From Bacteroidaceae bacterium (GTDB taxonomy: Bacteria; Bacteroidota; Bacteroidia; Bacteroidales; Bacteroidaceae): DNA of 64,000 nt. A program made the translations under genes and the position numbers. The stretch lies in assembly GCA_017466325.1 (NCBI GenBank), contig JAFTUK010000005.1, forward strand, positions 86,227 to 150,226. Reading direction: 5' to 3'. Below, piece after piece: positions 46,809-64,000 of this stretch; position 1 is the first letter of the stretch, and each line of letters opens with the position of its first letter. The notes below the pieces were generated by a model, which worked only from the letters and a program-made list of their open reading frames with translations, was not told where the DNA came from and ran no database searches.

Positions 46809-48725
46809 CTACTGTCTTGTCACGTCTTTCACTCCCTTCACGGTTTTCAGCTTCTTGATAAGTTGTTGCAGGCGGCTGGTGTCGTCCACCATTACGGTAA
46901 GGTTGCCGAAGAAGATGCCGTCGTTGGAATCTATGCTTATGCTCCTGAGCAGGATTCTTTCCTCCTTGCTGATGATGCTGGTAATGTTGTTCACTATACC
47001 GATGTCGTCATTACCGATAACTCGCAAGGTGATAGGGTACTGTTGTCCGCCCTTTCCTGCCCATTCCGCCTTTACTATGCGGTAACCGAAACGCTCCCTG
47101 AGTTGCTTGGCATTGGGACAGTCCGTGCGGTGTATCTTGATGCCGCCACCACTGGTTACGAAGCCGAACACCTCGTCGCCATAGACAGGCTGGCAGCACT
47201 TTGCCATCTGGAAATCAATGCCTTTAAGGCTGCGGTCTATGATGAGGACGTCATCCTTACTCTTCTCTGCATCTGTATTTACGGGTTCTGCCAGGACAAA
47301 CTCCTTGGCGCTGGTATGCTCTGCGGTGGTCTTGTTTTCCGTGGGGTTCAATCGCCCGGCATAGTCTTCCAGCACGTCGTTTATATCCAGTTCCTCTGTT
47401 GCCAGGGCGGCATAGAAGTCCGTCACCATTTTGTAGCCGAAGCCCGTGATGGTGTGCATCAGAGTGGGCTCGTCGAAGTCCAGTTTGCGGTTCTTCATCT
47501 TGCGTTCCAGAACCTCCTTGGCCATCAGCGCCTGACGGAACTGCATTTCCTTCAGACTTTGGCGTATCCTGGCCTTTGTTCTGGTGGAGGTGGCAATGTT
47601 CAGCCAGTCCTGTTTCGGAGTCTGGTTGTTGCTGGTCATTATCTCCACCTGGTCGCCGCTATGCAGTACCTGTTTTATGGGCACCTGCCTGCCGGCTATT
47701 CGGGCACCGGTGCACCGGTTGCCCAGTCCCGAGTGTATATGGTATGCGAAGTCCAGCACAGTAGAGTCAGCCTGCAGTTTGAACAGATCACCCTTGGGGG
47801 TGAACACGAAGATACCGTCCTCCTTGGCCTCCTTCACACCCTTGTATCTCCAGTGTGCGGCCAGTCCGTGCTCGGCAATGTCGTCCATGCGTTCGGTGCG
47901 TATCTGCACTTCCACCCATTTCTCTTCGGGTCCCAGCACGGTGATATGCAAGGATTCGTATCCGTTGTCCTTCGGCACGGAAAGCCAGTCGCGCATACGT
48001 TTTGGGTTGGACTGGTACATGTCCGTGATTATGGAGAACACCTGCCAGCAGTCCTGTTTCTCCTTGTTCCGGGGAGAGTCCAGGATGATGCGGATGGCAA
48101 ACAGGTCGTACACACCATCCACGCCCACATGCTGCTTCTTCATCTTCTGCCAGATGCTGTGTATGCTCTTGGTCCTGCCTTTCATATGGAACTTCAGGCC
48201 TGCTTCCGTCAGTTTCTTTTCTATAGGCCCTATGAAGCGTGCCACGTACTGGTCTCTGGACTTCTTGGTTTCGTTCAGTTTCTCCTTTATGTGGTAGTAG
48301 GCTTCGTGCTCGAGGTACTTCAGCGAGAGGTCTTCCAGTTCGGATTTCAGTTTGTACAGACCCAACTGGTGTGCTATCTGTGCCCACAGGACACCGGCCT
48401 CGCGGCTCTCCTTCTGTTTCAGTTCGCCATTTTCCACGTCCTTAATGTTGCGCATCAGAGCCACATGGAAGGCAATGAACATCATCACCACCTTCATGTC
48501 GGCCACTTCGGACATGATGAGAGCGCGCAGGTTCTCGTTTTCCACGCTTGCCGACTTTTCCTTCAGCATCTCCACTTTCCGCACGGCGGAGACAAAACTG
48601 CTGCCTTCGTCCGAAAGCAGTTTGTAAATGTCCTCCGTTTCTCCGGTCTCTTCCTTCAATATTTCCGATGTCTGCCGGGCTATTTGGACAGGGTCCAAGC
48701 CAAAGACTTCACATAATTGCAACAT
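46809..48725 (-). CDS. relA: RelA-type (p)ppGpp synthetase with degenerate hydrolase domain
   Basis: The 638-residue cytoplasmic protein has the synthetase domain (GRTKSIHSIWQKMKKQ; GVYDLFAIRIIL; DNGYESLHITV; VEVQIRTERMDDIAEHGLAA), TGS (FVFTPKGDLFKLQADSTVLD), the zinc-finger/CC region (DFQMAKCCQPVYGD; HRTDCPNAKQL) and a C-terminal ACT domain. The N-terminal HD domain lacks the HDxxED motif, and the usual ADRLHNMR reads AFHVALMRN. The hydrolase is therefore predicted dead, making this a synthetase-only RelA. The ATG at 48725 is chosen because the -7 box TACTTTTG (48745-48752) would lie inside any longer version; GGAG precedes it. Confidence 0.9.
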   Translation of the reverse strand: MLQLCEVFGLDPVQIARQTSEILKEETGETEDIYKLLSDEGSSFVSAVRKVEMLKEKSASVENENLRALIMSEVADMKVVMMFIAFHVALMRNIKDVENGELKQKESREAGVLWAQIAHQLGLYKLKSELEDLSLKYLEHEAYYHIKEKLNETKKSRDQYVARFIGPIEKKLTEAGLKFHMKGRTKSIHSIWQKMKKQHVGVDGVYDLFAIRIILDSPRNKEKQDCWQVFSIITDMYQSNPKRMRDWLSVPKDNGYESLHITVLGPEEKWVEVQIRTERMDDIAEHGLAAHWRYKGVKEAKEDGIFVFTPKGDLFKLQADSTVLDFAYHIHSGLGNRCTGARIAGRQVPIKQVLHSGDQVEIMTSNNQTPKQDWLNIATSTRTKARIRQSLKEMQFRQALMAKEVLERKMKNRKLDFDEPTLMHTITGFGYKMVTDFYAALATEELDINDVLEDYAGRLNPTENKTTAEHTSAKEFVLAEPVNTDAEKSKDDVLIIDRSLKGIDFQMAKCCQPVYGDEVFGFVTSGGGIKIHRTDCPNAKQLRERFGYRIVKAEWAGKGGQQYPITLRVIGNDDIGIVNNITSIISKEERILLRSISIDSNDGIFFGNLTVMVDDTSRLQQLIKKLKTVKGVKDVTRQ

Positions 48726-48744
48726 AGGCTCCTCTATTTCGAAT

Positions 48745-48804
48745 ACAAAAGTACAAAAAAATGGGGAAAAGACATTCATATATTATAAATAATGTGTATA
48801 TTTG
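48745..48804. promoter_or_regulatory. Divergent promoters of relA and the DUF4301 gene
   Basis: Minus strand: TACTTTTG (48745-48752), 19 bases before the relA ATG. Plus strand: TATATTTG (48797-48804), 26 bases before the DUF4301 ATG. Both are -7 boxes without a clear -33 partner. Confidence 0.55.
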
Positions 48805-48830
48805 CGTTGAAAACCATTAAACTCAATACT

Positions 48831-50348
48831 ATGTTAACAGAACAAGAACGTCAGCAGATTGCCAAGAAAGGCATCAGTGAAGAACAGCTGCAAGAGCAGC
48901 TCAAGAGTTTTGAGAAGGGCTTCCCCTTCCTCCGCCTGCAAGCAGCGGCAAGTACATCCAACGGTATCATTGCTCCCACTGCCGAGGAGCAGGAAGCATA
49001 CGTAAACACCTGGAACAGATACAAGCAGGAAGGTCATCACATCACCAAGTTCGTTCCCGCATCCGGCGCTGCCAGCCGTATGTTCAAGGCTATGTTCGAG
49101 TTCGTGGATGCAGAGTATGATGTACCCACCACCGACTTTGAGAAGAAGTTCTTCCAGGATATAGAGAAGTTCGCATTCTACCAGGCACTGGACGATGCTT
49201 GCAACGTTATTGAAGGCAAGGGCATCAAGGCTCTGATGGAGGAGGGCAACTACAAGGCTGTTGCCGCCGCCATGTTGGATGCCGCCGGTCTCAACTACGG
49301 ACAGTTGCCCAAGGGCCTGCTTCAGTTCCATTCCTACGATGACTGTGCCCGCACTCCCCTTGAGGAGCACCTTGTGGAGGCAGCCCTCTATGCCAGCAGC
49401 CAGGGCGAGGCAGACGTACACTTCACCGTAAGCACCGAGCACCGCGAACTGTTCGAGGCACTGGTTCAGGAGAAAGTGGCAGAGTACGAGAAACAGTATG
49501 GCGTCCATTTCAATGTAAGCTTCAGCGAGCAGAAGCCCAGCACCGACACCGTTGCCGCCAATATGGACAACACCCCATTCCGCAACGATGATGGCACCTT
49601 GCTGTTCCGTCCCGGCGGTCATGGCGCTCTTATCCAGAACCTCAACGATCTGGAGAGCGATGTGGTGTTCGTGAAGAACATCGACAATGTTGTTCCCGAC
49701 CGCCTCAAGGACGACACCACCCAGTGGAAGCAGATTCTGGCTGGTATCCTCATAGACGCACAGATCCAGACCTTTGCTTACCTGCGTCTTTTGGACAGTG
49801 GTGACTACAATCACGACGACATCGAGAACATGATCCGCTTCCTGCGCCACACCCTGTGCACCGACCGTGCCGACATCAAGGAGATGGAGGATGCCGAACT
49901 CGTTTGCTATCTGCGCGAGAAGCTCAACCGTCCCATCCGTGTCTGCGGCGTGGTGAAGAACGTTGGCGAACCCGGCGGTGGTCCCTTCCTGGCATATAAC
50001 CCCGACGGAAGCGTATCCCTGCAGATTCTGGAAAGCAGCCAGATAGACACCAACAATCCCGAGTACATGCGCATGTTCACTGAAGGCACGCACTTCAACC
50101 CCGTGGACCTCGTTTGCGGCATCCGCGACTACAAGGGCAACAAGTTCGACCTGCCCAAGTATGTTGACCCTGCCACAGGTTTCATCTCCTTCAAGAGCAA
50201 GTCCGGCCGCGAACTCAAGGCACTTGAACTTCCCGGTCTGTGGAACGGTGCCATGAGCAACTGGAACACGCTCATGGTAGAGGTTCCTCTCTCTACCTTC
50301 AACCCCGTAAAGACGGTCAACGACCTGTTGCGCGAGCAACATCAGTAA
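48831..50348 (+). CDS. DUF4301 protein
   Basis: The 505-residue cytoplasmic protein starts MLTEQERQQIAKKGISEEQL. It matches DUF4301 throughout: FVPASGAASRMFKAMFEFVD (about 79-98), LFRPGGHGALIQNLNDLESD with VVFVKNIDNVVPDR, and GVVKNVGEPGGGPFLAYNPD. The PASGAASR and GGHGAL segments look like a nucleotidyltransferase-type phosphate loop (UDP-sugar pyrophosphorylase-like), but activity is unknown. The upstream in-frame ATG at 48792 precedes the -7 box and is rejected. Codon use is that of a well-expressed gene. Confidence 0.88.
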   Translation: MLTEQERQQIAKKGISEEQLQEQLKSFEKGFPFLRLQAAASTSNGIIAPTAEEQEAYVNTWNRYKQEGHHITKFVPASGAASRMFKAMFEFVDAEYDVPTTDFEKKFFQDIEKFAFYQALDDACNVIEGKGIKALMEEGNYKAVAAAMLDAAGLNYGQLPKGLLQFHSYDDCARTPLEEHLVEAALYASSQGEADVHFTVSTEHRELFEALVQEKVAEYEKQYGVHFNVSFSEQKPSTDTVAANMDNTPFRNDDGTLLFRPGGHGALIQNLNDLESDVVFVKNIDNVVPDRLKDDTTQWKQILAGILIDAQIQTFAYLRLLDSGDYNHDDIENMIRFLRHTLCTDRADIKEMEDAELVCYLREKLNRPIRVCGVVKNVGEPGGGPFLAYNPDGSVSLQILESSQIDTNNPEYMRMFTEGTHFNPVDLVCGIRDYKGNKFDLPKYVDPATGFISFKSKSGRELKALELPGLWNGAMSNWNTLMVEVPLSTFNPVKTVNDLLREQHQ

Positions 50349-50436
50349 TAGCGAAAATGATTAGTCAACAGAACTCCGTGCCACTCCCTCTTTGCACGGC
50401 TCTTCTGATGCCTAATCACCCCGGGAGGGTTTTTCT

Positions 50437-50466
50437 GGCATCCACCGTTTGGTGGATGCCTTTTTT
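50437..50466 (+). terminator. Terminator of the DUF4301 gene
   Basis: GGCATCCACC-GTTT-GGTGGATGCC followed by TTTTTT is a perfect 10-bp intrinsic terminator. Confidence 0.9.
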
Positions 50467-50599
50467 AGAAATGCCAACATTGCCAAAGTATCGCAAGCAC
50501 TCTGCTATCTCGTTGTATAACAGCACACAATGGGCAGAATTATATCTGATTACATCTCTGCGTCCTTTGCGCTCTCTGCGTGAGTTTTGTTAGAGAGCG

Positions 50600-51060
50600 G
50601 TTAAGGTGATTTGTTTTGCACGCCGATGACGCCGAGAGCGCCGAGTTTTTATTTCATTTTCGTATTTCACGCTGGCGCTGGAGGGTCGCAAACTTCGTAA
50701 CGTCGAGAGTGCGCCGAGGTGAGTTTTCCGTTTTCCGTTTTCACCTTTCCGTTTGTCACGTGCTTTTTCACGTTTTTTAGATTACCCAACGAGTTCGCTC
50801 CTTGCTCCCTGCTCCTCGTTCCTCGCTCCCCGCTCCCCGTTCATTGTCCTCGGTGGTCATTAATTTCGTCGCCCTCGGCGATAAAAATCGTCGCCAGTGG
50901 CGGTGAACTTTGTCGCCAGTGGCGGTTAATTTTATCGCCACCAAGGGCAGAACTCCTCCCTACTGTCCTACGTCTGTTTTCATAGTTGGGAGGGGGTATT
51001 GTAACCGAGAAGCACCGAAATAACTGCCTGTAAGATGACTTCATTATCGTGTAACAGCCG
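50600..51060. repeat. Repeat-rich intergenic region
   Basis: No gene is visible. 50863-50950 holds four imperfect units built on GTCGCC-AGT-GGCGGT with AATTT spacers. 50790-50840 is a T/C-rich run of CTCGCTCC-type words. 50998-51060 (GTAACCGAGAAGC, CTTCATTA, TAACAGCCGATT) is a diverged relative of the MITE-like interior and right end seen at 16257-16418. The region marks the boundary to the AT-rich block that follows. Confidence 0.6.
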
Positions 51061-51248
51061 ATTCGCCGCTTCGACTTAAACTTCTTTAGTGCTACTATCA
51101 GTTTCCTGATTGTTGCCTTAAATTTTTGGTTGGTTAATTGGCGACTTTTAACTCCTTTTCGTGCCTTTTGTTTGAGTTAAATTGTACAAATACTCAAAAT
51201 AAGAGAAATTTTACTCTTGGTATTAACGTTTATTATAAATAAAAGTTG

Positions 51249-51256
51249 TAAATTTG
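51249..51256 (+). promoter_or_regulatory. -7 box of the six-gene envelope cluster
   Basis: TAAATTTG, 71 bases before the first ATG, in a very AT-rich stretch. A GTTTATTA segment about 17-20 bases upstream could be the -33 part. It is the only good promoter found between 51 and 64 kb on this strand. Confidence 0.55.
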
Positions 51257-51326
51257 CGCTCGAATTGCTATTTATACGTGTAATTAAGTGTTATAAAACA
51301 TATATTGGAGTCTAAAAAGTTAATAG

Positions 51327-54059
51327 ATGAAAAAATATTTATTGTTATTCTTGGTTGTTCTGTTGGCATCTGTGGATGTTTGTGCACAAAGGTATAATGT
51401 GTACATTAAGCAAGCGGATGGCTCTCCTGCTATGCAAGTAGATGTGTATTCTTTTGCAAGGGAGAGTTTGGCGAAGGCATCATATGCAAAATATAAGGAA
51501 TTGCATTATGTTGATGATTCAAAAGCAATGGAGACAACCCGTACTAACAATGAGGGCTATTGTGTCATTACTTGTGACAGGGAGGGCTACATTGTTGTCG
51601 ATGATGCTATGTTGAAGAATCCCCAACTTTATTCTGTTGCTAAATTGGCGGGAAATGGTATAGATATTCATATCGTATTGCCTGCCAGGAAGGATGCTGG
51701 TAAGACCAGGAAAAATGAGGCGGGAGAAATGGAGACGGATTTGGATCAGGTAGAAAAGGTTCAGGCTCTTCCCCCTCCTCCCCCAGCTCCCCCTATTCCT
51801 TATAGCTATGGACGTAAGAAAACAATTGGTGGCCATTTTACCATAGATGCGGATTTGGCAAGGAATGATGCCCGTTTTGTTGTATTTCCCAGGGTTTTCT
51901 TTCCGGCACAGGATTCTGTGTTGTATCTGAAACCAACTGTCGTAGATGGTGCGTCGTATCGTGAGTCAATGGAGAGGCGTATGGGCTTTGACTTTACAAA
52001 TGATAAGCTTGACCCCTATCATTTTGATAAGTCTTTTGAGATGCAAGCCCATGGCGAGGATATGTTTCTTTATACTCAGAATATAGAAGTTGATAAGGGG
52101 GTTGCTTATCATGCTGATGCTCAAATTTGGTATGAGGATTACAATGGCGTGTATCATAGGTATAACCAGAAACTTCAAGATGGTAAGGAGGCGGAACCTA
52201 TGCGCTTCTTGGATTGGGAAGCTGCAAAGCGTTCTGTTGTAATAGATACTGTACAGTATAAAAAGGTTGGAAAGATGGAAACGCATAAGGTTCCTGCCAA
52301 TTTCAAATTGGATTTTGAGGTTGGTAAGGAGTCTTTGAATATGAATGATTCTCTGACTATGCTTGAATGTAACAAAATGCTTGATATGCTTAGGCAAAGC
52401 CGTGGCAGTGACAATAATGTCACTGTTCTGGGTATAACAGTTAGAGGTTATTCTTCTCCAGAAGGTCAGTTCGCAAGAAACCGTATGTTGTCCAGAGGGC
52501 GTGCAAATACGGTTGTTAATTTGATCAAGAGAGAATTTCCCAACCTCTCTCGTGAGATTAAAGCAGAGTTGGACGAGAATGATAACGTTGTACCATGGCA
52601 GGCTGTTGCTGATGTGATGAAAAAGAGCACCGACCCTGTCGTATTGAACTATGCTTCTATTATAGATAATGTATTAGAGCGTAAGAGCGGTTATGATGCT
52701 CCTCAGTCGGAACTTAGAACCCATAAGGAATTGTGGGCATACGTTAAGGATAGCGTCTTGCCGTCTGTCAGAAGAACGGAGATTGTTACAGAATTACAAT
52801 TGACAAGAATTCTTCCTTTGGAGGAGATTATTCAACGTTATAATACAGATGCTGATTTTCGTGCAGGACGTGGAATAACTCAGGCTCAGGATTATATGTA
52901 TTATGAGTTGATGTGTTGGCTTGCCAAAAATGAGGATTGGGATGGATTGTACACAATATCCAAGGCTGTGTATGAAAGTCCTGCAATGGTGGAAATGGGT
53001 AAGCAGAAGCATGTTAGAAGAGGACGAATGAATAGAAATCAGGATGCAGTAGGTGGTGATACTGTTGAAACATACGTAAAGTCACGTCCTGGTTACGTTT
53101 ATTTAGGAATTAAGTCCGACCTTAAGGATGCGTCAGATAAGGTTGTATATAAATTGAATGATCGTGTTATAGAGAACGAGTCTGCGCAAAAGCCGGGTAA
53201 GTATAATTTCTCAATTTGTATGGGTGATGTTGTTTTATACAGTCAGCAGATTGAGTTGGTTTCATCAAAACCTCATGTTTTGACTGTTGGGTTGGAATCA
53301 GAAACATCGTCATATCCCTATCCTTTGGCTGCATACTATTACGCATCTTCCTTATTGCATAAGGGTGAGGTGGATACTAAGATAATTCGTCAGTATTTAG
53401 ATGACGGTGCGGTTAATAGAAAAAACTGGGGACAGATTCAGTTTAATGATATAGCAATGATTACAACTCAAATACTTATGCACTGTCAAGATGGTGACTT
53501 CAACTCGGCTAATCGATTGATAGTTAAGTATAATTTGAGTGCAGATGATCCTAAGTTGAAACCACTGATTATGTTTGTCAGGTGTTTGGCAGGTGAATTC
53601 CTGACAAACACGGAAATCCAAGATTACGTCAAATCAACTTCTTTGATGAATCGGGCCGTAGTTTTGGCTGCTTTGGAGAATTGGGATGATGCATTGGAGA
53701 TTCTAAATGATTCAATGCCGCAGGAGGATGTCAGAGTTCAGTATCTGAAGGCGATTTGTAAGTTTAAGGATTTGGGAAGTACGATGATTCAACCAGATCA
53801 TGATCCTTACAATAGCAGTGCGGTCTTTATTGACGAAGAGTCTGGTGCCATTGGTGATCCTTTTGCTGCTCCAATGTTAAAGGCATTTGAATTGGATGAG
53901 TCAAATGTAGAATATATAAAGACAGATGGATATTTCAATGATGCATATAGATTATTGGTATTGTATTTCTGGAAGAGATTGAGCGAAGGTATGAAAATCA
54001 CGGACGTTGCAAAGGAGTATGATGCTTTGGTTAATGAGCGTGCCAAATCAGCAAATTGA
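51327..54059 (+). CDS. Exported OmpA-like protein, first gene of the envelope cluster (910 aa)
   Basis: A signal peptide (MKKYLLLFLVVLLASVDVCA, then Q) precedes an N-terminal carboxypeptidase-regulatory-like strand region (about 20-120) and a proline run (PPPPPAPPIPYSYG, about 150). Residues 320-410 look like an OmpA-type peptidoglycan-binding domain (FKLDFEVGKESLNMNDSLTM; VRGYSSPEGQFARNRMLSRG). The C-terminal 400 residues are helical, with pairs such as LMHCQDGDFNSANRLIVKYN that could be TPRs. OmpA-plus-TPR fusions tether complexes to the cell wall (PorE is one example), but this is not a PorE orthologue I can confirm. It is AT-rich and 61 bases upstream of the next gene. Confidence 0.7.
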   Translation: MKKYLLLFLVVLLASVDVCAQRYNVYIKQADGSPAMQVDVYSFARESLAKASYAKYKELHYVDDSKAMETTRTNNEGYCVITCDREGYIVVDDAMLKNPQLYSVAKLAGNGIDIHIVLPARKDAGKTRKNEAGEMETDLDQVEKVQALPPPPPAPPIPYSYGRKKTIGGHFTIDADLARNDARFVVFPRVFFPAQDSVLYLKPTVVDGASYRESMERRMGFDFTNDKLDPYHFDKSFEMQAHGEDMFLYTQNIEVDKGVAYHADAQIWYEDYNGVYHRYNQKLQDGKEAEPMRFLDWEAAKRSVVIDTVQYKKVGKMETHKVPANFKLDFEVGKESLNMNDSLTMLECNKMLDMLRQSRGSDNNVTVLGITVRGYSSPEGQFARNRMLSRGRANTVVNLIKREFPNLSREIKAELDENDNVVPWQAVADVMKKSTDPVVLNYASIIDNVLERKSGYDAPQSELRTHKELWAYVKDSVLPSVRRTEIVTELQLTRILPLEEIIQRYNTDADFRAGRGITQAQDYMYYELMCWLAKNEDWDGLYTISKAVYESPAMVEMGKQKHVRRGRMNRNQDAVGGDTVETYVKSRPGYVYLGIKSDLKDASDKVVYKLNDRVIENESAQKPGKYNFSICMGDVVLYSQQIELVSSKPHVLTVGLESETSSYPYPLAAYYYASSLLHKGEVDTKIIRQYLDDGAVNRKNWGQIQFNDIAMITTQILMHCQDGDFNSANRLIVKYNLSADDPKLKPLIMFVRCLAGEFLTNTEIQDYVKSTSLMNRAVVLAALENWDDALEILNDSMPQEDVRVQYLKAICKFKDLGSTMIQPDHDPYNSSAVFIDEESGAIGDPFAAPMLKAFELDESNVEYIKTDGYFNDAYRLLVLYFWKRLSEGMKITDVAKEYDALVNERAKSAN

Positions 54060-54120
54060 TTGCATTATTCTTTAAAACATAATAGAAAAATAAAACAGAA
54101 TAATATAGACGATATAGTAT

Positions 54121-54840
54121 ATGTGTTGTTATATGAAACGTAGTGCCCTTATATTTTTGTTAATTCATGGCTTTGTTTCTTTTGTCTATGCCCAAAAACA
54201 ACAGTTAGAGGCTGTAGATTTAGGACTTAGTGTCAATTGGGCCAATATGAACGTCGGAGCTAAATCGCCTGAGGAGTATGGCAACTATTTCGCATGGGGT
54301 GAGATAGAGGAGAAGAGATATTATTATGAGTATATATCATCTAAACACATTGATGTCAATGTTGAAGGTGTGGGTACCTTGGGCGCCTCTTCTGTATCGT
54401 CAGCAGTGACTAAGTATTCTAAAATGGATCGTAAAACCGTTTTAGACAATGAAGATGATTGCGCCAATCGTATAATGGGATCAAAATGGAATGTTCCGAC
54501 TAAGGAGCAGATGCAAGAGCTTATAGATAACTGTGAATGGACTTATATTATTAAAAACGGAACAAGCGGTATATTAGTTAAAAGTAAGGTTAACGACAAT
54601 TCCATTTTCTTGCCTTTAGCAGGTTATAAGACTGGTCACCGTACTAAGGGAACTATTAGACAATATTGTTCAACAGAGGCATTTTATTGGACATCATCAC
54701 TCAATTATGATGAAAGCGTAGATTCAAAGAAGAGCAGTGTTTTGCAGGCACATGCTCTGTATATGAAAAGTACAAGTCATACCTTGATGCCTTTTCATAG
54801 GGCAAATGGTTGTGTCGTGAGAGCCGTGTGTAAGAAGTAG
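54121..54840 (+). CDS. Exported FISUMP-domain protein (239 aa)
   Basis: After a signal peptide (MKRSALIFLLIHGFVSFVYA, ATG at 54133, with an alternative ATG at 54121) the mature part is one Fibrobacter succinogenes major paralogous (FISUMP) domain. It contains VDLGLSVNWANMNVGAKSPE, YGNYFAWGE, GSKWNVPTKEQMQELIDN, LPLAGYKT, AFYWTSS and CVVRAV at the end. These C-type-lectin-like domains occur on surface lipoproteins; no lipobox is present here. It is 21 bases before the TPR-like gene. It may provide the exposed or ligand-binding part of the assembly. Confidence 0.8.
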   Translation: MCCYMKRSALIFLLIHGFVSFVYAQKQQLEAVDLGLSVNWANMNVGAKSPEEYGNYFAWGEIEEKRYYYEYISSKHIDVNVEGVGTLGASSVSSAVTKYSKMDRKTVLDNEDDCANRIMGSKWNVPTKEQMQELIDNCEWTYIIKNGTSGILVKSKVNDNSIFLPLAGYKTGHRTKGTIRQYCSTEAFYWTSSLNYDESVDSKKSSVLQAHALYMKSTSHTLMPFHRANGCVVRAVCKK

Positions 54841-54861
54841 GACAACATAAGACAAGATGTT

Positions 54862-56523
54862 ATGAAACATAATATAAGATTTTTCGGTTTAATTTTTCTT
54901 TGTTTGTCAGTAGTTGTGAGTATTCAGGCTCAATTGCCAGAAAAAGGTGATTGGAAGACTCGTGTTGGTGTTAAGACTCCCGACAAGGTACAGGGTTGGG
55001 TTCAGGATGTATTTGATAATCCCCCCATGTCTAATGCTAGTTCAGATTTGGATTCCGCATCTTTTCTGAAGTACTATTTGTCTTTTGGAAAATTGGTAGA
55101 TAATGCTCCATATGTTCTTTATCATTTATATTCAGGTGCTTTTTCTGAGATGCAGGCTGGTCGTAAAGACTCTACTAGCATTTATGACCGAATGATATCA
55201 TCTCAGTCAGATCCTGCGATTAAAATGATGATTGTGGACGATATTTTGAAATTAGGTCGTAATTTCATTGATAATTTGGATAGCGTTAATGTCGTTCGCA
55301 ATAATCGCGATACAACAGAAAAGGCAGCTGATGATACTCTAAGTTTGCCGGTGGCTATGACAAAATATGCTCACCTGTATTACAAGTATGCGAGTAATCC
55401 CGCATACTATCCAGCACATTTGTACGATATTGAGCAAGCAAGAGAAAACTACAGAAGTGCTTTTATGATGCTTCGTAAAAGAAATATTGATCCAGGAAGT
55501 GAGCTTGAGGGTTTTTATGTAAATGAGTACTACAAGACATGTGAAGAACTATTCAAGTCCGATGAAGAAAAGTATTATGAACAGTTTTTGGAAGACTACT
55601 TGGAAATTGTGCAGACTTGCGATAATCTTCTCATTCCTTTTTATGATATTCCTGATTCAATTAAAAACTACTCTAAAGAATCAAAATATCATAAGTTCCG
55701 TAGTTATAATTACTACACCAATCATAATGTAGAAGGTGTTAAGGCTTTGTTCAAGGCTAGTGGTGCTGCTACTCCTGAGCGTTTGAACGATTATTACATG
55801 GCACAGTTGAAGGAGCATCGGAAGGATACTGCTTATCTTAATAGAGCCATCAATGTGTTAAATGAAAATAATTGTTCTCAGACTCCAGCCTTTTATTCAT
55901 ATTGCGAGGCTTCTTATATGATAAGACCTACTTATATGAATTGTATAGGTTGTGCTTTTGCAAGTAAGGAAGATGGGATGCGTGATGACATGATTAAATA
56001 TTTTTTGGAGGCTTATGATCTTGCAAGTACAGACTTGCAGAGAGGACTTATTGCTTATCAAATTGGTTGTGCTAACAATACTCCAATTCCCACAACGGAC
56101 ATAAAATCTGCAGAGTATTCTAAATGGGTGGATAATATGAACACGGCGTATTCTAATCTAAAGAAAGTGCTTGATGTTCAGATGGCATTTGGTGAAAGTT
56201 CCAGTATACAGGTTAGGGAAATTCCAGCTCGTACTGCTTTTGAATTGGCTCAGAATCGTTATCGTCTGCGTTATACTTTGACATCTATCGCAGAGATGGA
56301 TGAGGCTGCAGGTTATGTAAAATTAGCAATGGAGGCTGCACCAGATTTGTATAATAATCCTGCTAACCAAATAGGACCAAAACTAATGGCTCAAATTACA
56401 GAAAGACGCCAGAAACTTGTTGCAGATGCTAAAAATGCAAGCATTCGTAAGGCTCAGGAAAAGGCATATGCTGAATACCTTAAGAAAAAGCAGGCTGAGG
56501 AAGCATTCTGGAATCAGCATTAA
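54862..56523 (+). CDS. Exported helical-repeat protein of the envelope cluster (553 aa)
   Basis: A signal peptide (MKHNIRFFGLIFLCLSVVVS, cleaved after QAQ) precedes an almost all-helical protein with TPR-like spacing (MTKYAHLYYKYASNPAYYPA; MIKYFLEAYDLASTDLQRGL; VKLAMEAAPDLYNNPANQIG). The C-terminus is a long charged helix (RRQKLVADAKNASIRKAQEK then AEYLKKKQAEEAF). Four Cys in two close pairs (NCSQ, SYCE, MNCIGCAF) could form disulfides in the periplasm. It is a likely scaffold. The family is unknown to me; similar proteins of this size sit beside DUF3575/OmpA genes in other Bacteroidales by my recollection. Confidence 0.65.
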   Translation: MKHNIRFFGLIFLCLSVVVSIQAQLPEKGDWKTRVGVKTPDKVQGWVQDVFDNPPMSNASSDLDSASFLKYYLSFGKLVDNAPYVLYHLYSGAFSEMQAGRKDSTSIYDRMISSQSDPAIKMMIVDDILKLGRNFIDNLDSVNVVRNNRDTTEKAADDTLSLPVAMTKYAHLYYKYASNPAYYPAHLYDIEQARENYRSAFMMLRKRNIDPGSELEGFYVNEYYKTCEELFKSDEEKYYEQFLEDYLEIVQTCDNLLIPFYDIPDSIKNYSKESKYHKFRSYNYYTNHNVEGVKALFKASGAATPERLNDYYMAQLKEHRKDTAYLNRAINVLNENNCSQTPAFYSYCEASYMIRPTYMNCIGCAFASKEDGMRDDMIKYFLEAYDLASTDLQRGLIAYQIGCANNTPIPTTDIKSAEYSKWVDNMNTAYSNLKKVLDVQMAFGESSSIQVREIPARTAFELAQNRYRLRYTLTSIAEMDEAAGYVKLAMEAAPDLYNNPANQIGPKLMAQITERRQKLVADAKNASIRKAQEKAYAEYLKKKQAEEAFWNQH

Positions 56524-56590
56524 TAATTCGTATTTTCAGAGATGAAATTACAAATCTTGCATACATAATATATATATAAAGTTTCAACCA

Positions 56591-58510
56591 ATGAATTATT
56601 ATCACTTTATCCATAATTTTTGTGGTAGAGCATTTACTATATTACTATTGTCTTTTTGTGTAGGACTAAGTGTCTCTGCGCAGAACGACGATAATAATAT
56701 AGAAATACCTGTTGAGGCACAGCAGTTTTTTGATAAGTTGGTTCCAAAGAAGGATACAACAAATACAGAGGAACTAAAAAAATATAGGCAGGACAAGTTC
56801 ATTAAACGTATCAGCATCCATACCAATATAGTAGATTGGGCAACTCTTGTTCCTAATATTGGTTTGGAGATTGACTTGAAGGATTCTCCAAGGAATAACT
56901 ATAGTGTTTCTATATATGGTAAGTATAATGGTAGCCCTACTCTGGGTAAACTTGTCTATAATGTTGCCGCTGTTAGATTAGAAGGCCGAAAGTATTGGCG
57001 TACAGGAACACGTGGTAAGGGTAATGGTAGTGGTGAGTATTATCTTATGCCAGAATACATTGTTGACTCATTGGCAGGAAGCAAATATGTACTTGATTCA
57101 ATTGGTCGTAAGGCCAAGAAGGTAGGTGTGAAATTTTCTGATGAATATCCAGATAGGTCCCAAGAATATAAGGATAGTTTGGATAGTCAAATGGATTCTC
57201 TTGGCTTGAACAAGAATGGTTTACGTAACTGGTTTTACAATACTTATAATAAGTTTACCCGAAATGTAACGTCTGGACGAGGTGTAGATAATCCCAAAAA
57301 TTGGCGTGCTTACTATTTGGGTATATGGGCAGGCTTTGACGATTGGAATGTATCTCTGACAGGCAATGGCAAGCGTGGACAGGGGTTAGGCCTGGGTATC
57401 CTTGGTGGTTACACCATCCCTTTGCTTCCACAGAAGTATCCTAAGGAGGGAAGCTTGGACTTGGACTTGGGTTTGGCTATTGGTGTGAAGGGTGTTAAAT
57501 ACGATGCTTATACCTATGTTGCTGCCAATCCGGAAGGACAGAGATATGTTGACAACCCTGCAAAATCACAGACCTCATGGAAAATCGTTCCATATCCTGT
57601 TATTCAGGATATTCATGTCAGTTTGGTTTGGCGATTCCGCGGCATAAAGAATAAGGTTGACAGATCCTTGATTGATGATTACTTCAAGAAAGTTGCTAAA
57701 ATTGAAGAAACCAGAAATTCTTTATATAACAAGGAAAACTATGTTAAAACACCTGCAAGACAAAAGTTAGAGGAGTTAATATTAGCAAGACTGCATAATA
57801 AATCTGACTCTACAGAGTTTTGGGATTACTTCCACAAGCGTCGTTTGGATAACGCAAGGAGACTTAATCCGGATACCGTATTTACTGATGCTGATCAACT
57901 TCTGTACCTTAAGATTGTCAATAAGGTTGATACTACAGAAGCCAAATTGATGTTGAAGCGTTTTAAGGAGGAAACCAAAGATAGTCTTGAACGAGTTGCA
58001 CGACAGGCTCGCCGTGACAGTATAGCAACAGCTGATTCTATAAGCAAGCAGCTTAGAATTAATGCCCGCCAGGCTCGAAGAGACAGTATTGCCGCAGCAG
58101 ATTCTATAAGTAGGGCGTTGAGACTGGCCCGAAGAGACAGCATTGCAACTGCCGATTCAATAGCAGAGGCATTGAGAGATGCTTCAAGACAGTTTAAGCG
58201 TGACAGCATAGCTGCAGCCGATTCCATAGCTAAGGCATTACGAATAGCCCGAAGAGATAGTATAGCTGCCGCCGATTCTATAGCCGATGCTTTGAGAGAG
58301 GCAGAAAGGAAGGCCAGACGTGACAGTATAGCTGCTGCCGATTCCCTGGCAAAGGCTATGAAGAAGGAGGGGCGTAAGAATAAAGCCAAGAAAAAGAAGG
58401 ACAAGGATGCTCCTGCCGAAGAGTCTGGAAATTCTGCCGAGACACCGGTTCTTCCAGTAGGTGAAGATGAGGATGCCCAGCAGGGAGATGTTAAAAAAGA
58501 CGAGGAATAA
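56591..58510 (+). CDS. DUF3575-type protein with a six-fold RRDSIAxADS helical repeat (639 aa)
   Basis: A signal peptide (ending VGLSVSAQ) is followed by a beta-barrel-like domain (about 75-365): IHTNIVDWATLVPNIGLEID is the DUF3575 signature, and GLGLGILGGYTIPLLPQKYP and VSLVWRFRG are later strands. Residues 470-600 contain six units of the pattern RRDSIA(A/T)ADS(I/L)-x2-ALR, spaced 17-21 residues. They are strongly charged and helical, followed by a Lys/Glu tail. The unit repeats at the DNA level too (58010-58350). I infer an outer-membrane barrel with a long periplasmic arm. It starts 67 bases after the previous gene. Confidence 0.72.
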   Translation: MNYYHFIHNFCGRAFTILLLSFCVGLSVSAQNDDNNIEIPVEAQQFFDKLVPKKDTTNTEELKKYRQDKFIKRISIHTNIVDWATLVPNIGLEIDLKDSPRNNYSVSIYGKYNGSPTLGKLVYNVAAVRLEGRKYWRTGTRGKGNGSGEYYLMPEYIVDSLAGSKYVLDSIGRKAKKVGVKFSDEYPDRSQEYKDSLDSQMDSLGLNKNGLRNWFYNTYNKFTRNVTSGRGVDNPKNWRAYYLGIWAGFDDWNVSLTGNGKRGQGLGLGILGGYTIPLLPQKYPKEGSLDLDLGLAIGVKGVKYDAYTYVAANPEGQRYVDNPAKSQTSWKIVPYPVIQDIHVSLVWRFRGIKNKVDRSLIDDYFKKVAKIEETRNSLYNKENYVKTPARQKLEELILARLHNKSDSTEFWDYFHKRRLDNARRLNPDTVFTDADQLLYLKIVNKVDTTEAKLMLKRFKEETKDSLERVARQARRDSIATADSISKQLRINARQARRDSIAAADSISRALRLARRDSIATADSIAEALRDASRQFKRDSIAAADSIAKALRIARRDSIAAADSIADALREAERKARRDSIAAADSLAKAMKKEGRKNKAKKKKDKDAPAEESGNSAETPVLPVGEDEDAQQGDVKKDEE

Positions 58511-58581
58511 TCTGTTGAATGATATTTCAGAATACGGAGATTTGACGTTGTAGAAAGAATTTAGAATCTGAAGCCGTTAAT

Positions 58582-59127
58582 ATGATAAAGATTAAAAAGA
58601 TACTTGTGGTTGCTCTGTTGGCAATGACATCGAGCATCGCACATGGGCAACTGATTGCAGTGAAAACCAATGCGCTTATGGATGTGGCCATGGCTCCAAA
58701 TATTGGTTTGGAAGTTGCCTTAGGTAATAACATTTCTGTTGCAGCAAATGGTTTTGCCAGTTGGAATATATATGGTATGAAGGCTAAGACCTATGGTTTT
58801 ATACCGGAATTCCGTTATTGGCTGTACGGTAACACGTTCTCAAAACTGTTTGTCGGTGCAGGTGCTACAATGGCTCACTACGACGTTTCCGTGTCTGACT
58901 ATAACTACTATGGCTCGACATACGGCATAGGTGTGAATGTAGGTTACAACCTGTGGCTTTCAAAGCACTGGAGTGTGGAGTTTCACGGTGGCGTAGGTGG
59001 TTATTATTATCATCATGCCCGTACCGAGATGTCTGTTCCCAGACCAGAATTGCCAGAGTATAATGCAAGTGGTTGGACGGTCCTTCCTTATCAATTAGGT
59101 ATTAGTTTCGTATATATAATAAAATGA
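58582..59127 (+). CDS. DUF3575 single-module outer-membrane protein (181 aa)
   Basis: The product has a signal peptide (MIKIKKILVVALLAMTSSIA, cleaved after HGQ) and one compact barrel: AVKTNALMDVAMAPNIGLEV (the DUF3575 start), IPEFRYWLYGN, KLFVGAGATMAHYDVSVSDY, GIGVNVGYNLWLSKHWSVEF and the closing strand QLGISFVYIIK. It has the size of an eight-stranded OmpA-like barrel. Its stop overlaps the ATG of the giant barrel protein (ATGA at 59124-59127), so the two are made together in coupled amounts. Confidence 0.82.
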   Translation: MIKIKKILVVALLAMTSSIAHGQLIAVKTNALMDVAMAPNIGLEVALGNNISVAANGFASWNIYGMKAKTYGFIPEFRYWLYGNTFSKLFVGAGATMAHYDVSVSDYNYYGSTYGIGVNVGYNLWLSKHWSVEFHGGVGGYYYHHARTEMSVPRPELPEYNASGWTVLPYQLGISFVYIIK

Positions 59128-62100
59128 GGTTAAGATTTTTAGATATGACAGGATTTCTTTCGCTTGTGACAAGCAAAAAGGGAAATCTGATGCTACTTCT
59201 TATGTCCGTGGGCATGCAGTGTTCGTATGCTCAGACGAATGCCGATTCCTTGTCTGTGTCCGATGAGGAACCAATAGAGGTTGTGGCACCTAAGAAGTAT
59301 GTTGATTTCACACCCGAGGAGGTTCAGTTGCAAGATAGGTACAGACCTACTGAAAATGACTACCTCTTTCCTTCTAAGTGGTGGAGACGTATGTACTTTG
59401 GCTTTGGTGGCGGACTGAATGTGGTTACAGATAATGCGAGCAGTTCCTTTCAACCTCAGTACTACGGATTTTTGGGTTACAAGTTCTCTCCGATTCATAG
59501 TTTGAGGGGTAAGTTCTCCATTGCCAATTATGAACTGGCGAATACCGGTACTTCTGTTGGTACTTATGGTTTTGGCCTTGAATATCTGGCTAACCTCTCT
59601 AATTTTGTCAATGGATACAATCCGAGGGGTCGCGTATTTGATGTCAGCACCGTTATGGGAGTTGGTATGATATATTCGTCCAAGGGTTTGCCCAAGAACA
59701 TGCTGCCTTATGCAACGTTAGGTTTCAATCTTAATGCACATTTGTCAAGTAATGTGGATTTCTTTGTTGAGCCTTATGCTGGTATTATGGGTTCTGCGGA
59801 AGATGTTTTTGGTCGTAAATCTTCGGAGAAAATAAATCTGCAGTATGGCGTAAATGCCGGCGTACAGTTTAACCTGAACGAACGTTTCAACAGATATGAA
59901 AATTCTGATAGCGTTTATCGCCTTCCTTTCGTTGACGTTAGTATAGGCGCTATCGCTTCTGGATATAGCGGTGGCTTGCTACACAGAAGCGGTGTTAACT
60001 ATCAGGCAGCTTTAGGTATGTGGATAAATCCGGTGTTGGGTGTAAGAGTCGGTTTGCAGGGCCAGTCACATCATTGGTACTCTGGAGCAAAGTACTTGAG
60101 TGGTGTTAAGGTAACAGAAAATAAAGACCAGGTATTGTTCGGTGGTCGTGCTGAGTTGATGATCAACCCTCTGAATATCTCCAAGAAGTGGCGTGACAAG
60201 CAGGGAGGTCATGATTTCGAGCTGAACCTGCTGGCCGGTGCTGATTTGGGTGGAACTATGAGAGCATATGTGCCTAAGTCACCAAGTAACATTGCGTTCT
60301 ACTATGGTATGACAGGTGCGTTGCAGTTCCTGTATAGGATCAATAATCCTGGAACTTATATATACTTTGAACCTCGTTACTCAACTGCTACATACGATAT
60401 TACCAAAACTGACAATTCTGTAACGTCTCATACCAATCATTTCATGTCTTTGAATGTTGGTACGCGTGTTTACATGAACTACAATGCATTTACCAATAGA
60501 GATGATGATTACTTTGAACCACATTGGTGGGCTGGTGTTGACATCGGTGGTGTTAAATGGCAACGTAGCAAAACTTACACAACTGGTGGATTGGGTGTCA
60601 ATCCCTCATTTGGCTTGAATGTAGGCTATGATTGGAGGAGATTGGCATCATTCCGTGCACAATTGAGTTACCAAAGACTGTATGACACACATCAGGCATC
60701 ATATAAGGGAATGAATGAAAACAATGTTCCCAAAAAGGGTTATGGCCTTTGGAACAGTGCATACAACCTTATGGATTTGCGCTTGTCCTACATGATGAAT
60801 TTAAGCACTCTGTTCCAGGGATATAACGAAGACCGCAAATTGAATCTTTGGTGGACAGTCGGTCCAACTGTATCTTATGTTTTCAGTCAGAATGACTCAT
60901 ATGTCGAGGGACAGAAGAATCCTGCACCTGATTTGAAGGATATTGAATTGTCAGACCATAAGGCTGGAAATATATCTCCGGGTATGTCAACATCTTTGAT
61001 GGCATCCTTAAGGGTGGCAAGACAGATGGATATTACGGCAGAGGCTTTTGGACAGTATAATTTCATTGCTGGAACCAACCCAGGTAGTCGTCCCCGTATG
61101 AACAATGTAAAGTACGGAGTCAGCTTAGGTACAAGATATCATTTTGTGCCTGGTCAGTTGAAACTTCATGGTAATAGCGATTACAAGGAATTCTTCTTTG
61201 ATGCAGGTCTTGGATGGACCAGCAATAGCCTGTCTACTTTGCATAATGCGGGTACAGCATACAGTGCTGCGCTCGGTAAGTGGTTCAATCCATTGCTTGG
61301 TATGCGTCTCGGTTTGAATGGTAATACCTTTAAGCATGCGACAGAAATCCGACAGGTTAACGGTGTGGATTTGCGTTATGCAAAGAGCATGGCTACAGTT
61401 GGCGCTCGTGCAGAACTGTTGGTGAATCCCCTGAATTTATTCAATTCATGGCGTGAGAAACCCGGAGGTCATGATTTTGACATGAATCTGTTGGTTGGTG
61501 CAGATCTGGGCGGTGTTGCCAAGAATGGTTATGGCAGATTCTATGGTATGTACTATGGAGTTACTTCTGCGATGCAGTTCTTGTATCGTATTAACAATCC
61601 TGGTACTTACATTTATCTTGAACCAAGATATCTTTCAGCAAGGTATGATGCTCCCTATGAAGGAACAAACATAGAGCATAAGGTTAAGGACAATCTGTTC
61701 TCCATGAACATTGGTGTTCGTACGTATATGACAGATCCTTCGTTCACTCCAAAGAATTCTGATGAGATGATTCCCGGATGGTGGATGGGAGCAGATTTTG
61801 GCGGAATGAAGATTCAGCGTTCTTCCATTTATACAAAGCCTGGTGGATTAGGATTGAATCCTTCTGTAAGTTTGTCTGTAGGTTATGATTGGAAACCGTT
61901 AGTTTCTTTCCGTACCCAACTTAGCTATCAGCATTATTCAGAATATACCAAATCCAATTACACAGGTATAACTGCTGAGAATAAAGTTGTTAAGGGTAAT
62001 GGGTTGTGGAATCGTAATTACAATATTCTGGATTGGCGTTTTGCTTACATGCTGAACCTCAATAACTTCTTCCAGGGATATAATCCTGACAGAAAGTTCA

Positions 62101-63713
62101 ATTTCTGGTTGACTGCTGGTCCTGCCGTAACATTCATTACCGGTGAGAACGATAAGTGGGTAGAGGAGCAGAACGTTATGATGAAGGATGTTGAGGACTA
62201 TAAGCTGCCAAACAACAAGGCAGGTAATGTTTCTCCTGCACTCCATGCCTCTTTCATGACCACCTATAAGGTTAGCAATAAGGTTGATTTGACCGCAGAA
62301 GCATTAGGCCAGTACAACTTTATACCTGGAACTAATCCCGGAACCAAGGGCAGAATGAACAATATGAAGTATAATTTTGCTTTGGGTGCCCGATATCATT
62401 TCGATCAGGATAAGTTGGAGGATTTCTTTCGCGGAACGGATTTACAGCCTTGGAACAAGGGATGGATGCTTGAAGCTTCTTATGGTTGGGCAATTCCTAC
62501 TGGTACAGGAAATGGTATGAATGGAAGTGGTAGCAGTATATTTGTTTCTGCCGGCCATTGGCTGACCAATGTGTTTGGTTTGAGATTCGGTTTTGGAGGC
62601 CAGCAGACATATTGGGGTAAGGCCGAGTATCCTGCTATAGTTAACGCCAATGGTCAAACCACACGTGGTGCATATACATTGTATAAGGAGCAGCTTATGC
62701 TGGGAACACGCCTGGAATTGCTGATTAACCCATTGAATTTGCTGAGCAGTTCTCGTAGAAACGCTTCTGCCGCACCCAAGTGGGACATGAATATGTCTAT
62801 GGGTCTTACTTGTGGTGGTCTTGCAAAGGTTAGTGCTGCCATTGGCGGAGGATATGTTGGATTTACAGCAGCAGTGACAGGTCTCTACCGTGTATCTAAT
62901 ACCACCCAACTCTTTGTTGAACCTCGTATAGAAACCCATAATTATGATTCTGACGAGAACTCTATGGGATTCACCAGATCATATACTGACAAGATGTTCA
63001 TGATTAATGTAGGTACTCGTGTTACACGCCCTGTTGGTGAGTCTAAGGAAAGCAAAAGAGAGTCGGATCCTGCAAAAATGTCTCATCGTGGCTGGTGGGC
63101 AGGTGTTACATTTGGTGGAAGCAAGATGAACCAGACTAAGAAAATCGGTGCCGGAGGTTTGGGACTCAATCCTTCTTTCGGTTTGACTGCCGGTTATGAC
63201 TTTACACGTCTTCACGGTTTGCGTGTGCATTTTGCATATGACATACATTCACGCCTGAGACCTAATCAGAAGTATACAATGCTTGTTAACGGACGCAATT
63301 ACAGATACTCAGGAACAATGGAAAGTTCATATCACCAGTTGGATGCAAGATTACTGTACATGTTGAACATGTCTAACTTGTGGACTGGTTATGATAAGCG
63401 CAGTAAGTTTAATGTTTACTGGGAGATTGGTCCGACACTGGCCAGTGTACTGTCTGAGAGTCATTCTCTTTCGGATAAAGAATATGTTAGAGGAACAGAC
63501 TTCAAGTACGTTGGCAGGAAGTATGCCGGAGAAACATCTTTTGGTTTGACTACAGGCGTACTTATGACTCTAAGTGTTTCAGACCAGTGGGATATCATGG
63601 CCGAGGTCTTGGGCCAGTACCATACAAACAGAGGTTATATGCCAGAGGTGCACCATATTTTCCTTAATGGTGTAAAGATGAATTTCAGCCTTGGAACAAG
63701 ATATAATTTCTAA
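59124..63713 (+). CDS. Giant outer-membrane protein of seven tandem barrel modules (1529 aa)
   Basis: After a long signal peptide (hydrophobic part LMLLLMSVGMQCSYAQ) and a 40-residue linker, the protein consists of about seven modules of ~205 residues. One leads (about 75-262), then come three pairs starting near 269, 688 and 1112. Equivalent segments recur: GGHDFELNLLAGADLGG and GGHDFDMNLLVGADLGG; FLYRINNPGTYIY (twice) and GLYRVSNTTQLFV; GGLGVNPSFGLNVGYDW, GGLGLNPSVSLSVGYDW and GGLGLNPSFGLTAGYDF; FQGYNEDRKLNLW and FQGYNPDRKFNFW. Each module resembles the DUF3575 neighbour and could be an eight-stranded barrel; the last ends in an aromatic residue (TRYNF). It is translationally coupled to the DUF3575 gene. 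Chains of barrels in one polypeptide are rare. Confidence 0.75.
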   Translation: MRLRFLDMTGFLSLVTSKKGNLMLLLMSVGMQCSYAQTNADSLSVSDEEPIEVVAPKKYVDFTPEEVQLQDRYRPTENDYLFPSKWWRRMYFGFGGGLNVVTDNASSSFQPQYYGFLGYKFSPIHSLRGKFSIANYELANTGTSVGTYGFGLEYLANLSNFVNGYNPRGRVFDVSTVMGVGMIYSSKGLPKNMLPYATLGFNLNAHLSSNVDFFVEPYAGIMGSAEDVFGRKSSEKINLQYGVNAGVQFNLNERFNRYENSDSVYRLPFVDVSIGAIASGYSGGLLHRSGVNYQAALGMWINPVLGVRVGLQGQSHHWYSGAKYLSGVKVTENKDQVLFGGRAELMINPLNISKKWRDKQGGHDFELNLLAGADLGGTMRAYVPKSPSNIAFYYGMTGALQFLYRINNPGTYIYFEPRYSTATYDITKTDNSVTSHTNHFMSLNVGTRVYMNYNAFTNRDDDYFEPHWWAGVDIGGVKWQRSKTYTTGGLGVNPSFGLNVGYDWRRLASFRAQLSYQRLYDTHQASYKGMNENNVPKKGYGLWNSAYNLMDLRLSYMMNLSTLFQGYNEDRKLNLWWTVGPTVSYVFSQNDSYVEGQKNPAPDLKDIELSDHKAGNISPGMSTSLMASLRVARQMDITAEAFGQYNFIAGTNPGSRPRMNNVKYGVSLGTRYHFVPGQLKLHGNSDYKEFFFDAGLGWTSNSLSTLHNAGTAYSAALGKWFNPLLGMRLGLNGNTFKHATEIRQVNGVDLRYAKSMATVGARAELLVNPLNLFNSWREKPGGHDFDMNLLVGADLGGVAKNGYGRFYGMYYGVTSAMQFLYRINNPGTYIYLEPRYLSARYDAPYEGTNIEHKVKDNLFSMNIGVRTYMTDPSFTPKNSDEMIPGWWMGADFGGMKIQRSSIYTKPGGLGLNPSVSLSVGYDWKPLVSFRTQLSYQHYSEYTKSNYTGITAENKVVKGNGLWNRNYNILDWRFAYMLNLNNFFQGYNPDRKFNFWLTAGPAVTFITGENDKWVEEQNVMMKDVEDYKLPNNKAGNVSPALHASFMTTYKVSNKVDLTAEALGQYNFIPGTNPGTKGRMNNMKYNFALGARYHFDQDKLEDFFRGTDLQPWNKGWMLEASYGWAIPTGTGNGMNGSGSSIFVSAGHWLTNVFGLRFGFGGQQTYWGKAEYPAIVNANGQTTRGAYTLYKEQLMLGTRLELLINPLNLLSSSRRNASAAPKWDMNMSMGLTCGGLAKVSAAIGGGYVGFTAAVTGLYRVSNTTQLFVEPRIETHNYDSDENSMGFTRSYTDKMFMINVGTRVTRPVGESKESKRESDPAKMSHRGWWAGVTFGGSKMNQTKKIGAGGLGLNPSFGLTAGYDFTRLHGLRVHFAYDIHSRLRPNQKYTMLVNGRNYRYSGTMESSYHQLDARLLYMLNMSNLWTGYDKRSKFNVYWEIGPTLASVLSESHSLSDKEYVRGTDFKYVGRKYAGETSFGLTTGVLMTLSVSDQWDIMAEVLGQYHTNRGYMPEVHHIFLNGVKMNFSLGTRYNF

Positions 63714-63741
63714 TAGGTTATTTGCTTTAATACATAAAAAG

Positions 63742-63776
63742 AAAGAGGGTGTGTCAAAATTGGCACATCCTCTTTT
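63742..63776 (+). terminator. Terminator of the six-gene envelope cluster
   Basis: AAAGAGGGTGTG pairs with CACATCCTCTTT (one G-T pair) around a ten-base loop and is followed by T. It starts 29 bases after the last stop. Confidence 0.85.
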
Positions 63777-64000
63777 GGGTACTCACGGTATGTGATTATT
63801 CCGATGTAGACAAGGGTGGTAATAGAACATAAGCAGGCATCGCAAGCTTCCCGATAAACTATTATTGGTGTCCGATAAAAGTTTAAAAGTGTATAAGAGT
63901 GTGTCTCAATCGCAGTATTTATGCGGTTGAGATTTCTTTTTTCAAATTCCAAGCCCCCAATTCAGAAAAGAGTTAATTGATGTGGCGAAATTTCATCAAA
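63777..64000. other. Right-edge non-coding stretch
   Basis: No credible gene is visible. A second hairpin with T-run (TCTCAATCGCA with TGCGGTTGAGA, 63904-63942) looks like another terminator. The phrase GGTGTCCGATAAAAG at about 63867 resembles ends of Bacteroidota IS elements as I remember them, but no partner end lies in the window. Confidence 0.4.

Follow-up and report, generated by a model that had tools for sequence, protein, structure and literature searches.

The 64,000-nucleotide window analysed here (positions 86227-150226 of contig C11 of its source genome, G000, up to the contig's end) carries a six-gene locus that probably (probability about 0.6) represents the outer-membrane part of a type V pilus-type locus of Bacteroidaceae, from which the pilin genes were lost and in which the gene order was rearranged. 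Three of its genes, E, A and F, are a conserved core triad, and this triad is more widespread than its link to pilins. Gene D, which the window has and stand-alone triads lack, accompanies the pilin-bearing form of the locus, and genes B and C are additions, seen in this genus only. An earlier note, made from the sequence alone, had described the locus as a non-fimbrial machine; as the whole answer this description was rejected, since pilin genes are found at the same place in relatives.

The six-gene locus and its products

Genes A to F are six open reading frames on the plus strand (51327-63713), separated, in that order, by 61, 21, 67, 71 and -4 bp. A candidate Bacteroidota -7 promoter box of the TAnnTTTG type (TAAATTTG; 51249..51256, plus strand) starts 78 bp upstream of gene A, and a TTTG element is absent at its usual distance of 16-24 bp upstream of the box. 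A TAnnTTTG motif is present at most 250 bp upstream of the first gene in 12 of the 15 loci inspected, versus about 3 expected from shuffles. A rho-independent-type terminator stem (63742..63775, plus strand; -23.3 kcal/mol, z -6.9) follows gene F, and no plus-strand open reading frame of at least 80 aa starts in the 287 bp 3' of F, at the end of which the contig stops (the assembly, of 2.59 Mb in 56 contigs, is 88% complete). By eye, all six N-termini are of the signal peptidase I type, ending in AQ or GQ, and none is lipoprotein-like or carries a lipobox. The six exported products, the single -7 box and the single strong terminator described in the earlier note were thereby borne out; the genes would form one transcription unit, and an outer-membrane location of their products is predicted. 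A Pfam scan of the six proteins revealed no pilin, SusD or TonB family, and the Por/Spr families of the type IX secretion core were absent from this general scan, which was not aimed at that secretion system. The earlier statement that fimbrillin, TonB receptor and SusD are lacking is therefore valid for the six proteins of the window, but not for the locus family, where pilins occur.

The distinct, AT-rich composition of the locus was confirmed (40.8% G+C versus 51.8% for window positions 1-51000). AT-richness was nevertheless rejected as a hallmark of the system: of 20 related loci, 10 exceed their flanks in A+T content and 10 do not. An invertible promoter was also rejected, as the upstream inverted repeats are short, imperfect or GC-rich. 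A GC-rich inverted repeat of 26 nt, 81% complementary, is located ahead of the operon (50877-50939). RNA elements were dismissed, with no Rfam match in window positions 48000-64000.

Gene A (51327..54059, plus strand) encodes a 910 aa protein composed of a signal peptide, an N-terminal part, an OmpA-like stretch (approximately residues 328-405) and a helical C-terminal part. It shares with the OmpA C-terminal family (PF00691) the frame GYxSPEG....N..LS..RA, reading GYSSPEG in A itself, and differs from this family by a score below the cut-off (13.6 versus 27.2 bits), by long extra N- and C-terminal parts and by a serine in place of an aspartate. Indeed, from alignment by eye, S377 of A corresponds to what we take to be the Asp of peptidoglycan-binding OmpA, and R392 presumably to the Arg of the binding site; position 377 is Ser in 15 of 15 A-family rows and R392 is invariant, so that the role of peptidoglycan tether earlier ascribed to A could not be upheld. 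Distant relatives of A consist of a carboxypeptidase-regulatory-like N-terminal domain (above cut-off in A of loci L113, L117 and L065), then the OmpA-like stretch (SPEG or SPDG), then a helical part. In a PDB search with the A family, SusC N-terminal domains were the only matches at E<=0.01.

Gene B (54121..54840, plus strand), which encodes a 239 aa protein with a signal peptide, had been read as a FISUMP domain protein, a reading that did not reach the Pfam cut-off: no Fib_succ_major (PF09603) match was obtained for B up to E 1, and its weakly Fib_succ_major/Lcl_C-like orthologues remained sub-threshold in six of seven cases (15.7-27.2 bits, cut-off 33.9), the seventh giving no match; an eighth protein in that set was discounted as a non-orthologue. 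Among the loci examined, B is limited to the clade with the order A-B-C-D, plus a large, partly similar protein of genome G060. Gene C (54862..56523, plus strand) encodes a 553 aa protein with a signal peptide, helical according to the earlier note and belonging to no Pfam family. A TPR-like protein of 470-490 aa, encoded elsewhere in most congeneric genomes (in G000, 469 aa, L016:8698-10107, contig C14), is distantly related to C; a count of C in 126 of 139 congeners was set aside, most of the matching rows being this separate paralogue. PDB searches with B and C gave nothing useful. C of the sister species G039 (L034:3073-4773) is 33% identical to C of the window, versus 42-51% for C of the other six clade members, and looks like the replacement of one gene, given that A, D, E and F of G039 are the nearest relatives of those of the window.

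Genes D (56591..58510, plus strand; 639 aa) and E (58582..59127, plus strand; 181 aa) are both above the DUF3575 (PF12099) cut-off of 21.1 bits (33.9 bits and E 2.5e-8 for D; 127 bits and E 6.5e-37 for E), as had been proposed, and are related to each other (profile comparison, E 4e-16). E is a DUF3575 barrel, 67-79% identical to E of other clade members. D combines a DUF3575-type barrel with a variable charged arm; the barrel type was retained, but the charged helical arm is no constant feature, being short or absent, by eye, in about 4 of 11 rows.

Modular architecture of F

Gene F (59124..63713, plus strand) encodes a 1529 aa protein with seven barrel-type modules, M1 followed by three a,b pairs, and a sub-threshold Pfam match to OMP_b-brl. 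Modules M2, M4 and M6 are mutually similar (z 33-62 versus shuffles), as are M3, M5 and M7 (z 44-104); M1 is closer to the M3/M5/M7 kind (z 4.5-5.8), and the two kinds are related to each other (hhalign E 1.5e-6). Averaged hydrophobicity, a rough measure, gives 10-11 amphipathic peaks per module, which, after merging of neighbouring peaks, may be read as approximately eight strands. No kinship between the F modules and E was detectable by profile comparison (probability 1.5%), and no significant relative of the modules was found in the PDB (best match of the b modules 2jmm, an OmpA, E 0.13; chance matches for the a modules).

Relatives of F have three to nine modules, and the number changes by pairs in the cases compared. 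In Bacteroidaceae and UBA7333 (n=42), three modules are found in 19 proteins, four in 1, five in 9, seven in 12 and nine in 1, and the counts in other families (n=8) are 5, 5, 5, 5, 6, 6, 8 and 8; related species are not independent in these counts, and the loci were picked with a long profile, so that chains of fewer than three modules are unsampled. A strict odd-number rule fails, the number being odd in 41 of 42 proteins of Bacteroidaceae and UBA7333 and in 45 of 50 overall. F proteins of eight modules each, 1587 and 1577 aa long, are encoded in L151 and L152 (genomes G494 and G597). According to best scores, M4+M5 is absent in G002 compared with G067 and in G133 compared with G131; F of G041 has one module pair fewer than F of G048, and in the nine-module F of G119 the closest copies are M4-M5 and M6-M7.

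Several homologous barrel-type domains are thus present in one chain of F, as in the multi-barrel outer-membrane proteins (Solan et al. 2021 PNAS, as discussed in the accessible part of PMC8592465). Unlike in those proteins, the modules of F are OmpA-sized, number three to nine and are of two alternating types in the clade of the window, and their separate closure is putative.

Gene order and pilin genes in relatives

A clear F (E < 1e-35) is encoded in 25 of 139 congeneric genomes; a count of 129 of 139 was set aside, since past these 25 genomes most frames are OmpA-sized and E rises abruptly (2.5e-41, then 5e-16). Full-length A (E < 1e-60; next match 2e-32) is present in 24 of the 139 genomes, all among the 25 F-bearers, the F-bearer lacking A being G014, whose F lies on a 4.3 kb contig. 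Relatives of F with titles come from MAGs named Bacteroidaceae, Prevotellaceae or Bacteroides sp., several of them ruminant-derived. The gene orders within the genus are (i) A-B-C-D-...-E-F in G000, G039, G002 (D and E on two contigs), G037, G067, G048 and G047, (ii) A-C-D-...-E-F in G131, G133 and G056, (iii) C-D-A-E-F in G005, G009, G045, G079, G078, G060 and G119, and (iv) E-A-F in G025, G043, G118 and G065.

Between D and E, the window has an empty 'pilin slot' of 71 bp (58511..58581, plus strand), which is also empty in G039 (71-73 bp) and is filled in many congeners, either by one to six pilin-type lipoprotein genes, of the Mfa type, or by one small lipoprotein gene. Pilin-type genes are located in or beside the locus, mostly between D and E, in 14 of the 25 congeneric F-bearers (G002, G037, G067, G048, G047, G041, G014, G005, G009, G045, G025, G043, G118 and G065); they adjoin F on the opposite strand in G005, G009 and G045, and G014 has a fragment only. 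A single small lipoprotein gene occupies the slot in three (G131, G133 and G056), no pilin gene was found at the locus in five (G000, G039, G078, G060 and G119), and the remaining three (G079, G134 and G064) were left uncounted on account of contig ends. The pilin labels rest on profiles that we built from the slot genes of L021 and from the gene 3' of F in L054; the L021 seeds number four, two of them scoring above the PF13149 (Mfa_like_1) cut-off, one below it and one giving a sub-threshold DUF5119 match.

Some pilin-less members have PF13149 genes elsewhere in the genome (G000, G039, G133 and G060). The sole PF13149 matches in G000 are five genes on contig 46, in an ordinary fimbrial region (L044; G000:C46:44001-62000) with two DUF3575 frames and two DUF5119 proteins. 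On contig 70 of G060 (L090, L091), ten Mfa_like_1 matches are found in approximately 26 kb, several open reading frames of 750-1000 aa holding two each. Profiles of the anchor (A3) and of g2 (A2) gave no match in G000 and G039, so that no relocated relatives were found there, and those of the slot genes g1 and g2 gave none in G000; with an assembly 88% complete and a contig that ends 287 bp past F, unlinked pilins are possible. In a tree of A+D+E, midpoint-rooted and including the long rows G065 and UBA7333, G000 and G039 (100/100) are sister to six pilin-bearing genomes (100/98), all eight forming a group with 100/99 support; pilin presence requires five changes on this tree, at least four of them on well-supported branches. 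The simplest account, based on D and the gene order, the tree being only midpoint-rooted, would be that the lineage of the window lost its pilins.

Beyond the genus, F-profile matches (E <= 1e-25) were obtained in 46 of 301 family genomes, from 14 of 30 genera; outside the genus, 18 of the 44 F-positive family genomes, from nine genera, were fetched and the other 26 left out. The order in these 18 loci is E-A-F in 15, A-F-E in 2 (L113 and L117) and E-A-x-A-F in 1 (L103). Two tandem E-A-F triads are present in L107 (G227:C9:25001-45000). Pilin-type genes occur in 12 of the 18 loci (seven genera) and were not found in 6. The PF13149 cut-off was passed by five of the six stalk-type genes tested from other genera, the sixth (L100) remaining below it, and the anchor-type gene of L106 had no meaningful Pfam match. 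With the 12 pilin-bearing loci extended upstream, D is located directly before the anchor gene in 11, and in the twelfth, L124, a 407 aa DUF3575 protein ahead of the anchor scores better as E. The common operon of the family is D - anchor lipoprotein - pilin-like lipoproteins - E - A - F.

At the level of the order, a search of 247 genomes detected full-length A (E < 1e-130) in 9, which belong to five other families; two weaker matches were left out (G626, E 2e-49; G522, E 3e-43). In eight of the nine loci chosen by A (four families), E-A-F is contiguous, without D and, in the stretches covered, without pilins; in the ninth, L153, E-A is present and F is missing, and one Mfa-like match lies close by. 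The same genes without D and, in the stretches covered, without pilins are found in L113, L115, L117 and UBA7333, and flanks are short for several stand-alone triads (L146, L151, L152 and L065). The only D-profile matches in stand-alone triads are to E itself, so that D marks the locus of the window as the pilin-type form. The eight neighbours of stand-alone triads that were scanned, in other families, include a sigma-54 regulator, MgtE, an acyltransferase, HisRS and cytochrome bd, and have no common theme.

Of the machine of outer-membrane-type proteins proposed in the earlier note, the exported set that travels together thus stood, and its separation from fimbriae did not, since pilin-type genes accompany the locus in 14 of the 25 F-bearing congeners and in 12 of the 18 loci fetched from other genera. 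Its genes are not scattered over most genomes as far as A, E and F are concerned: the triad stays together, and gene order is conserved for E-A-F (15 of 18 loci of other genera, 8 of 9 of other families) but not for C and B, which were searched for and found in none of these 27 loci.

Relation to type V pili and alternative explanations

The subunits and processing of the type V pilus (Fim/Mfa) loci of Bacteroidia have been described, and the accessible parts of these open papers name no outer-membrane platform of this kind (PMC12632263, PMC11316588). The locus of the window is homologous to pilin-bearing loci: in relatives, the operon includes genes for Mfa_like_1 lipoproteins and for an anchor with a sub-threshold likeness to DUF5119. 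Furthermore, L048 of the congener G067 encodes, beside a fimbrillin gene, DUF3575 and DUF3868/OmpA-like/TPR proteins that E and A resemble. There, a protein with DUF3868 above cut-off, the OmpA-like motif of A and sub-threshold TPRs is encoded between the DUF3575 gene and the fimbrillin gene; over the OmpA part, blast relates A to this protein with E 0.002 and to its G002 counterpart with E 1e-7, and DUF3868 (PF12984) has no match in G000. In Bacteroides thetaiotaomicron, DUF3868 and DUF3575 genes (BT4233-36) occur near the Mfa1-type gene BT4227, according to the accessible part of PMC10434189. Unlike type V pilus loci, in which the pilin subunits are made as lipoproteins and, once cleaved by a protease, build the filaments, the window has no pilin gene, its six proteins showing neither a lipobox nor a pilin-family match; D, C and B, and most of all the multi-module F, are components beyond those of such loci. 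In the proposed mechanism, F would be a line of small barrels set in the outer membrane, A could link E, D and F to one another on the periplasmic side, and the resulting E-A-F(-D) platform may present or anchor surface lipoproteins. In many relatives its cargo would be the pilins of the D-E slot; in the species of the window, the cargo may be encoded elsewhere or may not be a pilin.

The occurrence of E-A-F without D and pilins in other families and in L113, L115, L117 and UBA7333 suggests that the basic work of the triad may be unrelated to pili. E-A-F could accordingly be an old envelope module with a non-pilus function, e.g., outer-membrane stabilising or general handling of surface lipoproteins, with pilins as later passengers in Bacteroidaceae; the lack of a common theme among neighbours of stand-alone triads, and the five F-bearing congeners with no pilin gene found at the locus and three more with only a small lipoprotein gene, are in line with this. 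We consider it rather unlikely, in view of the pilin-type genes found at the same place in more than half of the F-bearing congeners and of the loci fetched from other genera, and of the resemblance of the E-A pair to the adjacent proteins of L048, where a fimbrillin gene comes next. That the locus is a decaying remnant, with pilins gone and the remaining genes being lost, is very improbable: the G000+G039 lineage does lack pilins and C of G039 is far more diverged than C of the other clade members, but every frame is open in the window, and likewise in G039 as far as its contig reaches, and identities between these pilin-less sister species, G039 being the nearest relative of G000 for each of the four proteins, are 61% for A, 58% for D, 79% for E and 62% for F, which argues for continued selection.

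If the pilins acted in trans, the five Mfa-type genes of contig 46, the only PF13149 matches in G000, could use the A-F platform. This is improbable, as that contig seems to carry a complete ordinary fimbrial set: two DUF5119 proteins there pass the cut-off, and of two DUF3575 frames the one that was scanned gave a weak OmpA match. In addition, G000 has no relative of the slot genes g1 or g2. As for F, the earlier reading as a seven-module giant barrel stood for the seven modules and not for the one barrel. A single very large barrel, with as many as 56 strands and serving to conduct proteins, so that the platform would be a secretion system, would agree with seven homologous modules in a single chain and with the ends of the last modules, which are beta-signal-like in 36 of 42 cases. 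It appears quite improbable, since each module seems complete, with approximately eight amphipathic segments by a rough measure, entire module pairs are gained and lost, 66 of 79 odd internal modules retain a beta-signal-like end (background 648 of 2100), and no significant PDB relative of the modules was found. Even modules rarely have such an end (32 of 78), so that F could also consist of an 8-strand M1 followed by 16-strand barrels, each made of an a+b pair.

In summary, the preferred reading remains that of a pilus-type locus deprived of its pilins. A wider proposal, tentative and somewhat unlikely in our opinion, is that E-A-F is an undescribed outer-membrane machine present in several families of the order, a raft of three to nine tandem small barrels that moves or anchors surface lipoproteins, is coupled to type V pili in Bacteroidaceae as their missing outer-membrane platform, and has another cargo in the species of the window. 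The triad accompanies pilins in seven other genera of the family and also occurs alone; it offers a testable candidate for the outer-membrane platform of type V pili. F, whose barrel-type repeats number up to nine and come and go in pairs, is an unusual case for the folding of outer-membrane proteins.
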